Shown here piece by piece: positions 16,962-20,824 of a stretch of DNA of 64,000 nucleotides. The notes beneath the pieces are model-generated. The model worked only from the letters and a program-made list of their open reading frames with translations, did no database searches and was not told the DNA's origin. The stretch covers positions 992,001-1,056,000 of the forward strand of contig NZ_JAUSYQ010000002.1 in NCBI RefSeq assembly GCF_030816965.1, in the 5' to 3' direction. The stretch is from Streptomyces canus. GTDB lineage: Bacteria; Actinomycetota; Actinomycetes; Streptomycetales; Streptomycetaceae. How positions within the stretch are numbered: position 1 is the first letter of the stretch; each line of letters begins with the position of its first letter. A program made the position numbers and the translations under genes.

Positions 16962-17696
16962 ATGGAGACTGCCGAGTTCATCCACATCCTGAACCGGGAA
17001 GGCCTGTTGCTCGCGTCGGCCGCCGAGCAGGCCGGACCGGACGCCAAGGTGCCGACCTGCCCGGACTGGCAGGTGCGGGACCTGCTGAAGCACACGGGGA
17101 CCGTGCACCGTTGGGCGACCGCGTTCGTGGCCGAGGGACACTCCGACCCCGTTCCCTTCCCCGACCGGCCCGATCTCGACGGTGCGGAGTTGCTCGACTG
17201 GTTCCGCGAGGGACACCGCCTCCTGGTCGGTGCCCTCGGCGCCGCCGACCCCGGCTTGCAGTGCTTCCAGTTCCTGCCGGCCCCGTCGCCGCTCGCGTTC
17301 TGGGCCCGGCGGCAGGCGCACGAGACAGCCGTGCACCGCTTCGACGCGGAGGCGGCCCGCGGCGGCACCTCCGAGGAGCTCGGCCGGGACTTCGCGGCCG
17401 ACGGCATCGACGAGTTGCTGCGCGGCTTCCACGCCCGCGCGAAGAGCAGGGTCCGCGCCGACGAGCCCCGGGTGCTGCGGGTGCGGGCGAGCGACACGGA
17501 CGGCGCCGTGTGGACCGTACGACTGACGCAGGAACCGCCCGCGGCCGAGTACGGCGATGCGGGGAAGGCCGACTGCGAGGTGTCCGGGCCCGCCGCCCGG
17601 CTGTATCTGGCGCTGTGGAACCGGTTGCCGTTCCCGCGGGTGACCGGGGACGTGTCGGTCGCCGGCCTGTGGCGGGAGAAGTCCGCCGTGGGCTAG
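16962..17696 (+). CDS. maleylpyruvate isomerase-family, mycothiol-dependent type protein
   Basis: A 244-residue soluble DinB-like protein. The N-terminal helical bundle has CPDWQVRDLLKHTGTVHRW, and a second metal-ligand segment ARRQAHETAVHRFDAEAA supplies Glu and His; these match the metal site of mycothiol-dependent maleylpyruvate isomerase relatives. The C-terminal half carries the SCP2-like domain (GDVSVAGLW). Members act as mycothiol S-transferases or isomerases; the substrate is unknown. Its stop codon TAG coincides with the left end of the IS630 element (TA of the target plus the element's first G), yet the reading frame appears undamaged. Confidence 0.82.
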   Translation: METAEFIHILNREGLLLASAAEQAGPDAKVPTCPDWQVRDLLKHTGTVHRWATAFVAEGHSDPVPFPDRPDLDGAELLDWFREGHRLLVGALGAADPGLQCFQFLPAPSPLAFWARRQAHETAVHRFDAEAARGGTSEELGRDFAADGIDELLRGFHARAKSRVRADEPRVLRVRASDTDGAVWTVRLTQEPPAAEYGDAGKADCEVSGPAARLYLALWNRLPFPRVTGDVSVAGLWREKSAVG

Positions 17697-17733
17697 TGCT
17701 GCGCCGCGGACGTTCCGCGATGGCCATCGGCTC
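17694..17733 (+). repeat. left terminal inverted repeat of the IS630-type element
   Basis: Starts TAGTGCTGCGCCGCGGACG and continues GTTCCGCGATGGCCATCGGC. The outer 23 bases match the reverse complement of the right end at 19 positions, and similarity continues inward with a one-base gap. Confidence 0.78.
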
Positions 17734-17744
17734 GTTGACCGGGC

Positions 17745-18817
17745 ATGGTGCTTGACGCTGATGATCGGCGTGTGCTGGAGGCACGGGTACGGGCCGATAC
17801 CACGCCGCAGCGCGATGCCCGGCGGGCTCACACAGTCCTGCTCGCGGCCGGTGGCTGTCGGGCCTGGCGGATGGCGGAGATCGTCCGGGTAGATGTCTCG
17901 CCGGTGGTGCGATGGCGGGACCGGTTCGCCCGGGAGGGAATGGCCGGACAGAAGGACCGGCCCCGCTCGGGCCGGCCGCCGGTCTACGGGCCGCAGGTGA
18001 GGCTGCGGGTCGTGGCGGCGGCCACCAGCACGCCGCCGCACCCCTGTGACGGCGGGTCGCATCGGCTGATCGCCGATCATCTGGCGGACACGGGCATCTC
18101 CGCCTCCCAGGTCGGACGCATCCTGGCCGAGCTGCGGCTCAAGCCGCACCGGGTCCGAGGCTGGCCGACCCGGCCCGCCGACCCGCAGTTCTTCGCCAAG
18201 GCGGCCGAGGTATGCGCCCTCTACCGCATCTGCCCGCCGGGCTCAATGGTGCTGTCAGTGGACGAGAAGACCGCGATGGCCGCCCGCTCGCGCAAGCATC
18301 CCGGTCGGCCGCCGGGCCCGGGACGGGTGCGGCGGCGGGAATGCGAGTACATCCGCCACGGCACCGTCTCGGTCACCGTCGCGCTGGACGTGCACACCGG
18401 TCAGGTGGTCATGGAGGAGCTGGAGCGCAACGACTCGCGCACTTCATCCGGTTCCTGGCCCGGCTTCAGCGGTGCGTTCCAGCCGGGCTGACGATCCATC
18501 TGATCCTGGACAACGGCTCCTCGCACACTTCCAGGGCCATCCGGGCGTGGCTGAAGCGGCATCCGCGGATCGTGCCGCACTACACCCCCGAGCAAGACTC
18601 CTGGCTGAACCAGGTGGAGATCTCCTTCTCCCTGCCGGCCCGCGCCGTCCTGCGTCACGGCGACTTCTCCTCCCGCACCGACCTGCTTGAGAAGGTCAGC
18701 GACTTCGCCATCGTCCACAACGAGACGGCTTGTCCGTTCCGTTGGAACTACGACGGTCGACCCCGCCAGACCGGGGACGAGCCCGCAGCCGCGAGGGAAG
18801 AGTGCCATGCCCGCTGA
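17745..18817 (+). pseudogene. IS630-family transposase with one frameshift
   Basis: Part one (17745 to about 18436) has the helix-turn-helix DNA-binding region and the first catalytic Asp (LSVDEKTAMAA). After a one-base loss near 18437 the frame continues with AHFIRFLARLQ, the second Asp (ILDNGSSHTS) and the Glu segment (DSWLNQVEISF), completing the DDE triad, and ends at 18817. Joined, it is a full-length IS630 transposase of about 357 residues. No slippery heptamer is evident at the shift, so this looks like inactivation or a sequencing error rather than programmed frameshifting. The last 11 bases overlap the start of the next gene. Confidence 0.85.
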
Positions 18818-19415
18818 CTCCGTCCGTCAGATCAAGGTCACCCTGGCCGACATCCACCCGCCGATCTGGCGGCGGCTGCAGGTCCCGGCCGACCTCAGAC
18901 TCGCCCGTCTGCACCTGGCGATCCAGCCCGCGACGGGCTGGGAGAACCACCACATGCACCTCTTCACCCTCCCGGCCGGCGACGACGGGCTACGCGACAG
19001 CGAACCCGGTCACCGCGACGAGCGGAAGGCCCCCGCTGGATACGGTCGCTCCCACCGTCGGCGACACGTCAGCTGCACCTATGACGTCGGCGACGACTGG
19101 GTCCACCACATCGAGGTGGAGAAGGTCCTGTCCACCGCGCCAGGTGCCACCTACCCGCGCTGCCTGACCGGCCGTCGAGCCTGCCCACCCGAGGACCGCG
19201 GCGGCCCCTGGGGCTACGCGGACTTCCTCGCCGCGATCACCGACCCCCAGCACGAGCAGCACGAAGAACTCCTCGACTGGATCGGCGGCACCTTCGATCC
19301 CGACCGCCTCACCACCGACGCCATCAACCAGCACCTCACCGCCCGAGCCATCGGCGGGACTTGTGCGGTGCAGCAACTCTTGTGCGGTACAGAGCAACTA
19401 GGGTACGGCGTATGA
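18807..19415 (+). CDS. plasmid pRiA4b ORF-3-family protein (transposon passenger)
   Basis: About 202 residues from ATG 18807, which lies inside the transposase 3' end. The family signature is clear: IKVTLADIHPPIWRRLQVPAD, ATGWENHHMHLF, YDVGDDWVHHIEVE, RACPPEDRGGPWGYADFL and the C-terminal DPDRLTTDAINQHL. This family of unknown function is common on plasmids and beside transposases. The last 20 or so residues (AIGGTCAVQQLLCG) are encoded by sequence resembling the element's terminal repeat, so the natural C-terminus was probably earlier. Confidence 0.82.
   Translation: MPADSVRQIKVTLADIHPPIWRRLQVPADLRLARLHLAIQPATGWENHHMHLFTLPAGDDGLRDSEPGHRDERKAPAGYGRSHRRRHVSCTYDVGDDWVHHIEVEKVLSTAPGATYPRCLTGRRACPPEDRGGPWGYADFLAAITDPQHEQHEELLDWIGGTFDPDRLTTDAINQHLTARAIGGTCAVQQLLCGTEQLGYGV
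19302..19401. repeat. internal copy of the element's right end
   Basis: The pRiA4b 3' end plus terminal-repeat-like DNA (19302-19375) is repeated at 20368-20443 with a few substitutions and a 2-bp insertion. Just after it CTTGTGCGGTRCAG occurs twice (19360-19373, 19379-19392) and ends at ACTAG (19397-19401), like a second terminus. It looks like the right end of an older, shorter element of about 1.7 kb. Confidence 0.72.
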
Positions 19416-20212
19416 GCCAGACTCCCGTCGACCCCGTCGCGCACAACCGCCTTGCCTGGGACCGCGAGGTGGAGGAGGGCAACGAGTGGTCACGCCCGGT
19501 CGGCCCCGAGGTGATCGCGAAGGCGCGGGCCGGCCAGTGGTCCATCGTCCTGATCGGGTACCAGCCGGTCGACCCGACCTGGTTCCCGCCGGAGATCGCC
19601 GGTCGCGACGTGCTCTGCCTCGCCTCCGGCGGCGGGCAGCAGGGTCCGGTGCTGGCCGCGGCGGGCGCGCGGGTGACCGTCTTCGACAACTCGCCCCGCC
19701 AGCTGGCGCAGGACGAGATGGTCGCGGCGCGGGAGGGGCTCGACCTACGCACCGTGCTCGGCGACGCGCGCGACCTGAGCCCGTTCCCGGACGCCTCGTT
19801 CGACCTTGTCGTCCACCCGGTCTCCAACCTGTTCATCCCGGAGCTTGCGCCGGTCTGGCGCGAGTGCCACCGCGTGCTGCGCCCCGGCGGGACGCTGCTG
19901 TCCGGCTTCCTCAACCCGGACGTCTACCTCTTCGACGCCGAGTCCTTGGAGGCGCGCGGCGAGCTGGTGGTGCGCCACCGTCTGCCCTACAGCGACCTCA
20001 CCCACCTGGAGCCCGCCGAGCGGGAACGGCTGTGGGGCCTCGACGCGCCGGTGGAGTACAGCCACACGCTCACCGAGCAGCTCGGCGGGCAGATCGCGGC
20101 GGGCTTCGCCATCACCGGCTTCGCCGAGGCGCCGCACCACTCGGAGGCCACCGCCGGCTGGCTCTCCGGCTACTTCGCCACGAAAGCGGTCAAGGCCGGC
20201 GCCGGTCACTGA
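19412..20212 (+). CDS. SAM-dependent methyltransferase (class I)
   Basis: A 266-residue cytosolic protein from ATG 19412. The Rossmann SAM-binding motif I is VLCLASGGGQQGPVLAAAG; motif II gives VFDNSPRQL; then GDARDLSPFPDASFDLVV and the post-motif LRPGGTLLSGF. The substrate is unknown; related proteins are annotated only as class I methyltransferases. It sits between two copies of the element's right end and is therefore transposon cargo. A TAGGGT box (19399-19404) seven bases before the ATG may give a leaderless transcript, placing its promoter in the older element terminus. Confidence 0.85.
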   Translation: MSQTPVDPVAHNRLAWDREVEEGNEWSRPVGPEVIAKARAGQWSIVLIGYQPVDPTWFPPEIAGRDVLCLASGGGQQGPVLAAAGARVTVFDNSPRQLAQDEMVAAREGLDLRTVLGDARDLSPFPDASFDLVVHPVSNLFIPELAPVWRECHRVLRPGGTLLSGFLNPDVYLFDAESLEARGELVVRHRLPYSDLTHLEPAERERLWGLDAPVEYSHTLTEQLGGQIAAGFAITGFAEAPHHSEATAGWLSGYFATKAVKAGAGH

Positions 20213-20367
20213 CCCTCCACCGGCCGGGCCAGGTCAGCAGTGAGTCCGGCGGGCGGCTGGGTCAGGCGGGCAACGACCCTGCTGATACACAAACCGGGAA
20301 CACCCCGGCCTCAGCAACACCGCGTCGCTCATCGTGGCGGCAACCGTGGGGCACCCGCACCACGCGT

Positions 20368-20446
20368 GACCGCCTCGACATCGACGCCATCAACAAACAC
20401 CTCACCGCCCGACAGCCATCGGCGGAACTTGTGCGGTGCAGCACTA
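20368..20446 (+). repeat. relic of the pRiA4b gene end plus right terminal inverted repeat
   Basis: Encodes the fragment DRLDIDAINKHLTAR, matching the pRiA4b protein's C-terminus, then the terminal repeat ending GTGCAGCACTA. The final TA is the target duplication, and the last three bases read as the TAG stop of marR on the other strand. Confidence 0.75.
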
Positions 20447-20824
20447 GGACGGCTCCAACATCCTTGTCAGGACCGCGCGTTGCACCGGCAGGGCGTCGCC
20501 GTGCAACGCGCGTCCCTTCGATGTGAGGGACACCTGCACGCCCCGCCGGTCCTCCGGGCACATGCCGCGCTCGACGAGCCCGTCCTTCTCCAGCCGGGCG
20601 ATCAGTCGCGACAGCGCGCTCTGGCTCAGATGGACCCGCTCGGAGATCTCCTGCACGCGGTAGGCGCAGCCGCCGTCGGCCAGGACGTCCAGCACCTCGA
20701 AGTCGCTGCCGCACAGGCCGTGTTGATGAAGAGCACGGTCCAGTTCGCACTGCGTGCGCGCGTGCAGCGCCAGGAGGTCCCGCCACTGTTCCGCGAGCTC
20801 CTGCTCGGGCTTCTTCGCCGCCAT
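20444..20824 (-). CDS. MarR-family transcriptional regulator
   Basis: About 126 residues (MAAKKPEQELAEQW...). The winged-helix core is clear: CGSDFEVLDVLA, ISERVHLSQSALSRLIARLE, and the wing RGMCPEDRRGVQVSLT. It is divergent from an MFS exporter, the classic arrangement in which MarR represses the pump and ligand binding releases it. An ACCGTA (TACGGT on the minus strand) -10 box at 20832-20837 puts transcription start at ATG 20824, so it is probably leaderless; GTG 20833 is the alternative. The stop codon is shared with the IS630 element's right terminus. Confidence 0.9.
   Translation of the reverse strand: MAAKKPEQELAEQWRDLLALHARTQCELDRALHQHGLCGSDFEVLDVLADGGCAYRVQEISERVHLSQSALSRLIARLEKDGLVERGMCPEDRRGVQVSLTSKGRALHGDALPVQRAVLTRMLEPS

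Follow-up and report, generated by a model that had tools for sequence, protein, structure and literature searches.

The window analysed here, a 64,000-nucleotide stretch of the Streptomyces canus genome (G000, 10.66 Mb; same genus as S. phaeoluteigriseus, G338, and S. minutiscleroticus, G377), carries at 17696-20444 a unit of 2,749 bp that is bounded by TA duplications and combines an insertion sequence (IS) of the IS630 type with a methyltransferase gene. The order of the unit is left end (LE), frameshifted IS630 transposase gene, pRiA4b-ORF3 gene, inner right end (RE1), methyltransferase gene with its own CTAG/-10-like start and solo outer right end (RE2). In coordinates of the window the features are:

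17694..17695, no strand: left TA target duplication, within the CTAG at 17693-17696 that forms the stop of the MDMPI-family gene; recognised from the junctions and the empty site.
17696..17735, plus strand: LE, inverted repeat with the tip GTGCTGC (26 nt at 85 %); similar left ends are present in the methyltransferase-free copies L010 and L133.
17745..18817, plus strand: transposase of the IS630 family, interrupted by a frameshift near 18436 and thereby divided between two open reading frames, 17745-18491 and 18212-18817.
18807..19415, plus strand: pRiA4b ORF-3-like gene (PF07929), its frame running through RE1 and its TGA stop overlapping the ATG of the methyltransferase.
19302..19378, plus strand: RE1, inner right end of the basic IS, with an altered tip (GCAGCAACT); a second, partial tip copy of about 20 bp reaches to 19397.
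19398..19404, plus strand: CTAGGGT, that is CTAG with a -10-like TAGGGT, 7 bp 5' of the ATG; a putative promoter element.
19412..20212, plus strand: class I S-adenosylmethionine (SAM)-dependent methyltransferase, 266 amino acids, intact.
20368..20444, plus strand: RE2, solo outer right end consisting of the end of an ORF3 gene and the inverted repeat, with the intact tip GCAGCAC.
20445..20446, no strand: right TA target duplication, within the CTAG at 20444-20447 that forms the stop of marR on the minus strand.

An earlier note on this DNA had described an IS630-type DDE transposase, inverted ends of about 40 bp and, between them, a pRiA4b ORF-3-type gene and a class I methyltransferase. These components were recovered. 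The first part of the transposase reached 107.7 bits with the IS630 model NF033545 (cut-off 100), the second part 68.8 bits, and PF13358 was matched as well; the ORF3 gene belongs to PF07929 (E 2.8e-53) and the methyltransferase to PF08241 (E 7.5e-19). A mechanical search returned inverted ends at 17693-17718 and 20422-20447, 26 nt with 85 % complementarity, and by eye, if one gap is allowed, they extend over about 40 bp. The terminal inverted repeats are common to other copies, namely to the left ends of the loci L010 and L133 and to the right ends of L005, L130, L131, L135 and L114. CTAG is present at both junctions of the unit (17693-17696 and 20444-20447), with the duplicated TA, likewise claimed before, at 17694-17695 and 20445-20446. 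The tips of the unit read GTGCTGC on the left and GCAGCAC on the right. Since its first base is G and its last base C, CTAG is rebuilt on both sides, and the stop codons of the MDMPI-family gene (end at 17696) and of marR (end at 20444) are kept, as the earlier note had stated.

The empty site that had been suggested as a check was found in related strains. Many of the 246 genomes of the genus contributed flank matches among the matches listed, and the joined flanks were aligned to 20 returned loci. At five of these 20 loci the flanks are contiguous and both flanking genes end at one CTAG; the predicted sequence was GGGCTAGGAC, and the sites of G140 (96 %), G188, G200, G234 and G241 read GGCTAGGA. 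The remaining 15 loci contain a repeat array (G221), a match that ends before the junction (G219, G243) or diverged intergenic DNA. Within the stretch examined, element DNA was present in none of the 20 aligned flank loci, nor was a simple IS seen among them at the CTAG of the window. The insert of about 160 bp in G221 was considered as an independent insertion at the same CTAG and rejected, since it reads as a tandem array and not as an element. This array of ~18-bp units (L015 1337-1505) occupies the same CTAG, flanked by the MDMPI and marR genes, has a strong predicted folding (z -2.9) and is present in full once in the G221 genome.

CTAG is rare in this DNA: shuffling predicts 73.4 for the window, which has 11, including three within or at the element. 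A 400-kb section of the genome contains 76 CTAGs; 21 are TAG stop codons, 46 lie outside and nine inside predicted genes, and 3192 of the 4486 TA dinucleotides of the same 400 kb fall inside predicted genes, the genes being predicted by a purpose-made finder that covered 77 % of the bases and overstates 'outside' for CTAG and TA alike. A convergent gene pair sharing one CTAG was encountered once in the 400 kb. A preference for CTAG is reported for an IS630-associated composite transposon (Tenzen and Ohtsubo 1991, as cited in PMC2170065), and a TA duplication on insertion for ISY100 (PMC2170065). The precise landing in stop codons thus has in itself nothing exceptional, because IS630 prefers CTAG and CTAG is seldom inside predicted genes. 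For a CTAG-seeking element, landing at gene edges or between genes is the rule.

The inner right end had been overlooked. Positions 19302-19375 are repeated in direct orientation at 20368-20443 with 89 % identity, and both copies, RE1 and RE2, represent right ends of one type of IS. The presence of a further right end, at about 19302-19378, places the methyltransferase outside the basic IS. A methyltransferase-free IS of G211 (L005, 83 %) ends at the position of RE1 and has CTAG on both sides; the basic IS therefore extends from LE to RE1, and RE2 is a solo end. The view of a methyltransferase inside one unit holds with respect to the outer ends, but the gene is not a plain IS630 cargo: it lies beyond a spoiled RE1 and is closed off by the solo RE2.

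Canonical right ends read GCAGCA-C-TA-G. Eight of the nine RE1 copies adjoining the methyltransferase have an extra base before the tip C (window, L034, L038, L040, L041, L092, L113 and L095, the last from a fuzzy motif match only), and the ninth, L006, reads CATAG. Seven right ends from copies without the methyltransferase (L005, L131, L135, L130, L114 and two in L124) all lack the extra base; five of them are canonical or nearly so and two, both in L124, are shortened. Counted were the ends reached by alignment from within ORF3; a 40-bp end of L005 at 389-428 and a minus-strand end of L130, possibly left or right ends, were excluded, and rows of the fuzzy end search with 6-7 edits were dropped as chance. 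RE2 of the window is canonical, without the extra base, and the transition to RE2 near 20355-20368 does not differ between the window, L035 and L092, which are different loci. In the ORF3 tree, six methyltransferase-linked rows were split from eight methyltransferase-free rows by one branch (100/100; 100 % of 200 bootstrap trees).

Close relatives of the methyltransferase (about 94-98 % protein identity) occupy 18 distinguishable loci in 16 genomes, which belong to Streptomyces, Streptacidiphilus and at least one further genus within the family (G552), after loci of equal match length and identity had been merged across collections (L034=L069, L036=L093, L038=L070, L039=L094, L041=L097, L008=L054). 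IS sequence or RE1 was found upstream at 11 of the 18 loci and RE2 downstream at three (window, L092 and L035, the last with RE2 only); five loci show no clear IS remnant (L037, L047, L007, L039, L096), and L008 is cut by the contig. Upstream of L037, a different transposase-like tail was noticed by eye. The conservation of ends expected in other copies was thus met with in single ends, while an intact pair was absent from the other 17 mobile loci. In a comparison without L092, L113, L095 and L096, junction flanks were common to none of the loci except two S. canus copies, with weaker matches of 66-77 % at other positions of the 8-kb flanks. S. canus V4I20 has two methyltransferase copies (L037, L047) in a common 2.1-kb block (98.6 %), in opposite orientation and towards two contig ends. 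In G585, two transposase-less derivatives (L092, L113) are located 42 kb apart, and this genome has an LE-like stretch, RE1, the gene and RE2; the pair was considered as evidence of transposition and rejected, since the outer flank is in common. None of 100 matching plasmid records held 80 % of the unit in one place.

The unit is probably a compound element from the IS630 (Tc1/mariner) family that is in decay, its gene having been captured between LE and RE2 before the landing in the window. Its history may have begun with an IS630 element with the ORF3 accessory gene that inserted at a CTAG overlapping the -10-like box of the methyltransferase gene. The tip of RE1, which in the window carries one additional base, would then probably have stopped serving as an end. 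RE2, a right end of the same lineage, lies downstream of the gene without the remainder of a putative second copy. The transposase may have paired LE with RE2 and moved the 2.75 kb by cut-and-paste into another CTAG, in which two convergent genes share their stop, with duplication of TA; the junctions and the empty site document the landing. The frameshift broke the transposase later, and the methyltransferase has stayed intact and constrained. The grouping in the tree and the extra base of RE1 suggest that the IS of the window probably adjoined the gene, with RE1 already spoiled, before landing, and that RE2 was most likely the end used. Judged by the TA duplication and the empty site, the outer ends may be functional.

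Several observations weigh against this history. Transposition of the whole unit rests on one locus: of the 18, only the window combines both outer ends and a target duplication. The pairing of LE with RE2 rather than RE1 we infer from the sequence, and RE2 may stem from a second IS copy or from a local duplication; moreover, the RE2 tip is altered in L092 and the TA is missing in L035. The eight altered RE1 tips most likely reflect one inherited change and not eight events, and L092 and L113, counted separately, belong to one genome (G585). The two copies of G585 share about 35 bp beyond the LE-like stretch, which argues for duplication rather than transposition. In the ORF3 tree, 7 of 11 inner branches are weak, the bootstrap is not settled, four rows are less than half filled and the root is a midpoint root. 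With respect to the -10-like element, 4 of the 46 out-of-gene CTAGs in the 400 kb form a TAGNNT that is oriented towards a predicted start no more than 120 bp away; a promoter role of CTAG is therefore not general.

Among the alternatives, the one that survives best, though unlikely, has a simple IS630 arriving first at the CTAG of the window and the methyltransferase with RE2 added later by homologous recombination of right ends, so that the unit never moved as a whole. As direct repeats of 89 % identity, RE1 and RE2 could recombine, and the gene with RE2 but without the IS exists at L035. However, the IS of the window groups with the methyltransferase-linked copies, the extra base of RE1 is also present beside the gene in other species, and a simple IS is absent from the 20 aligned flank loci. 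Less probable still is a classical composite transposon, in which two full IS copies moved the gene here and the second was then reduced in situ to RE2. RE2 represents an IS end of matching type and orientation, and it was for an IS630-associated composite transposon that the CTAG preference was reported (Tenzen and Ohtsubo 1991, as cited in PMC2170065); in the window, the second copy consists of RE2 only, about 76 bp, in place of two flanking IS copies. The same RE2 junction at three different loci argues against shrinkage in place and dates it before the insertion at the window site. The poorest candidate is a chance neighbourhood of a gene that spreads otherwise and IS630 copies that merely favour its CTAG: the five loci without clear IS remnant, the unjudgeable L008 and the different transposase-like tail at L037 fit this, but the linked IS copies group in the tree, the change in the RE1 tip is shared, and the outer ends and TA duplication of the window enclose the gene.

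For the compound element with a gene captured before landing, we tentatively propose a route of capture, possible rather than probable: the change of one base in the RE1 tip would oblige the transposase to use the next similar end downstream, and the neighbouring gene would become an obligatory cargo. As CTAG in this genome lies mostly at stop codons or outside genes, and overlaps the TAGNNT -10-like box of the methyltransferase gene, both capture and landing would leave genes readable. If this holds, a promoter-bearing single-gene cassette could arise and be passed on with little burden on the host. The unit offers a readable path from an IS to a gene-carrying transposon, by a spoiled end, a surrogate end and a captured gene, with a constrained methyltransferase spreading across genera while its vehicle decays. 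It also suggests how IS630-type elements may enter gene-dense, high-GC genomes without causing damage.

The decay of the vehicle is visible in the transposase. Compared to all three aligned relatives, it is split by one base near 18436; the window copy lacks an unbroken frame, and a long one is present in the relative L038. Programmed frameshifting was considered and rejected: the gap is absent in all three relatives, which makes decay the likelier cause. The unit is single-copy, a second copy was not found in the G000 genome, and its present mobility is therefore doubtful. The family model gave 23 IS630 matches in this genome, six of them above the cut-off: one is the first fragment in the window, two are interrupted by an internal stop, and three, located elsewhere, are free of internal stops. 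The ORF3 stop of L005 is lost in the window and, by eye, also in L034 and L038. Since the TGA of the window ORF3 overlaps the methyltransferase ATG (ATGA), translational coupling is possible. A miniature IS of the same kind was observed on plasmid NZ_CP109486.1 (L114 1501-2227), the transposase mostly deleted, ORF3 and right end retained.

The Pfam matches of the methyltransferase were restricted to Methyltransf_11, 12, 25 and 31, with no DNA-methyltransferase or defence family among them, and PADLOC returned one partial match (mad2, residues 63-180, E 8.1e-14). A role of the cargo in defence or DNA methylation was considered and, on these matches, rejected as little supported. The closest solved relative is PDB 8k76, a SAM-dependent methyltransferase of Fusobacterium nucleatum (E 3.4e-42; template modelling scores 0.83/0.92; 35 % identity), which was also the best match of the AlphaFold model (predicted local distance difference test 87.5), followed by 3bkw and 3g5l, two methyltransferases without a stated function, and, lower, by the small-molecule methyltransferases MitM, RebM, TleD and ArsM. 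On the strength of these similarities, the predicted cargo is most likely a small-molecule and not a DNA methyltransferase; detoxification or tailoring of small molecules is our guess for its role. The gene was full-length in all 16 mobile copies compared with the window copy, with ratios of nonsynonymous to synonymous divergence (dN/dS) of 0.09-0.51, single values being rough at the low dS.

The gene start reads CTAGGGTACGGCGT-ATG. A CTAGCAT is located at about the same distance in relatives from Kribbella and Phytohabitans (L042-L045), which gave no match to the IS of the window; a CTAG start in relatives without this IS makes the start look like the gene's own. Between L038 and the window, the flanking IS (9.4 %) and the spacer (13.8 %) diverge more than the gene (2.0 %). 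The synonymous divergence of the methyltransferase to L038 is 0.035, likewise below that of IS and spacer; the low value could reflect codon bias or a recent exchange limited to the gene. Relatives of about 73 % identity were observed on Streptomyces plasmids (records H5-H12), the match touching a gene annotated as DinB family.

Among the listed titles and abstract beginnings of open-licence literature, there was no IS630 element carrying a methyltransferase. The unit resembles IS630 and ISY100 of the IS630/Tc1-mariner group, as described in PMC2170065, in its IS630-type transposase, inverted ends, TA duplication and CTAG target; it differs from them by the extra ORF3 gene, the altered inner end, the cargo gene, the second right end and the frameshifted transposase. 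Transposons of the ISAzba1 group are reported to hold a gene for a pRiA4_Orf3-like protein like that of the unit, however with a Mutator-related instead of an IS630 transposase (PMC3942029). Transporter IS (tIS) are described as IS with passenger genes unrelated to transposition (PMC9330008, PMC7986276, PMC3129680). Whereas a tIS would be expected in the same arrangement with both ends at several sites, this was seen at 1 of the 18 mobile loci. Both the unit and a tIS hold between their outer ends a passenger without function in transposition, but the passenger of the unit lies past the old right end of the IS, and its route of capture is thereby still readable.

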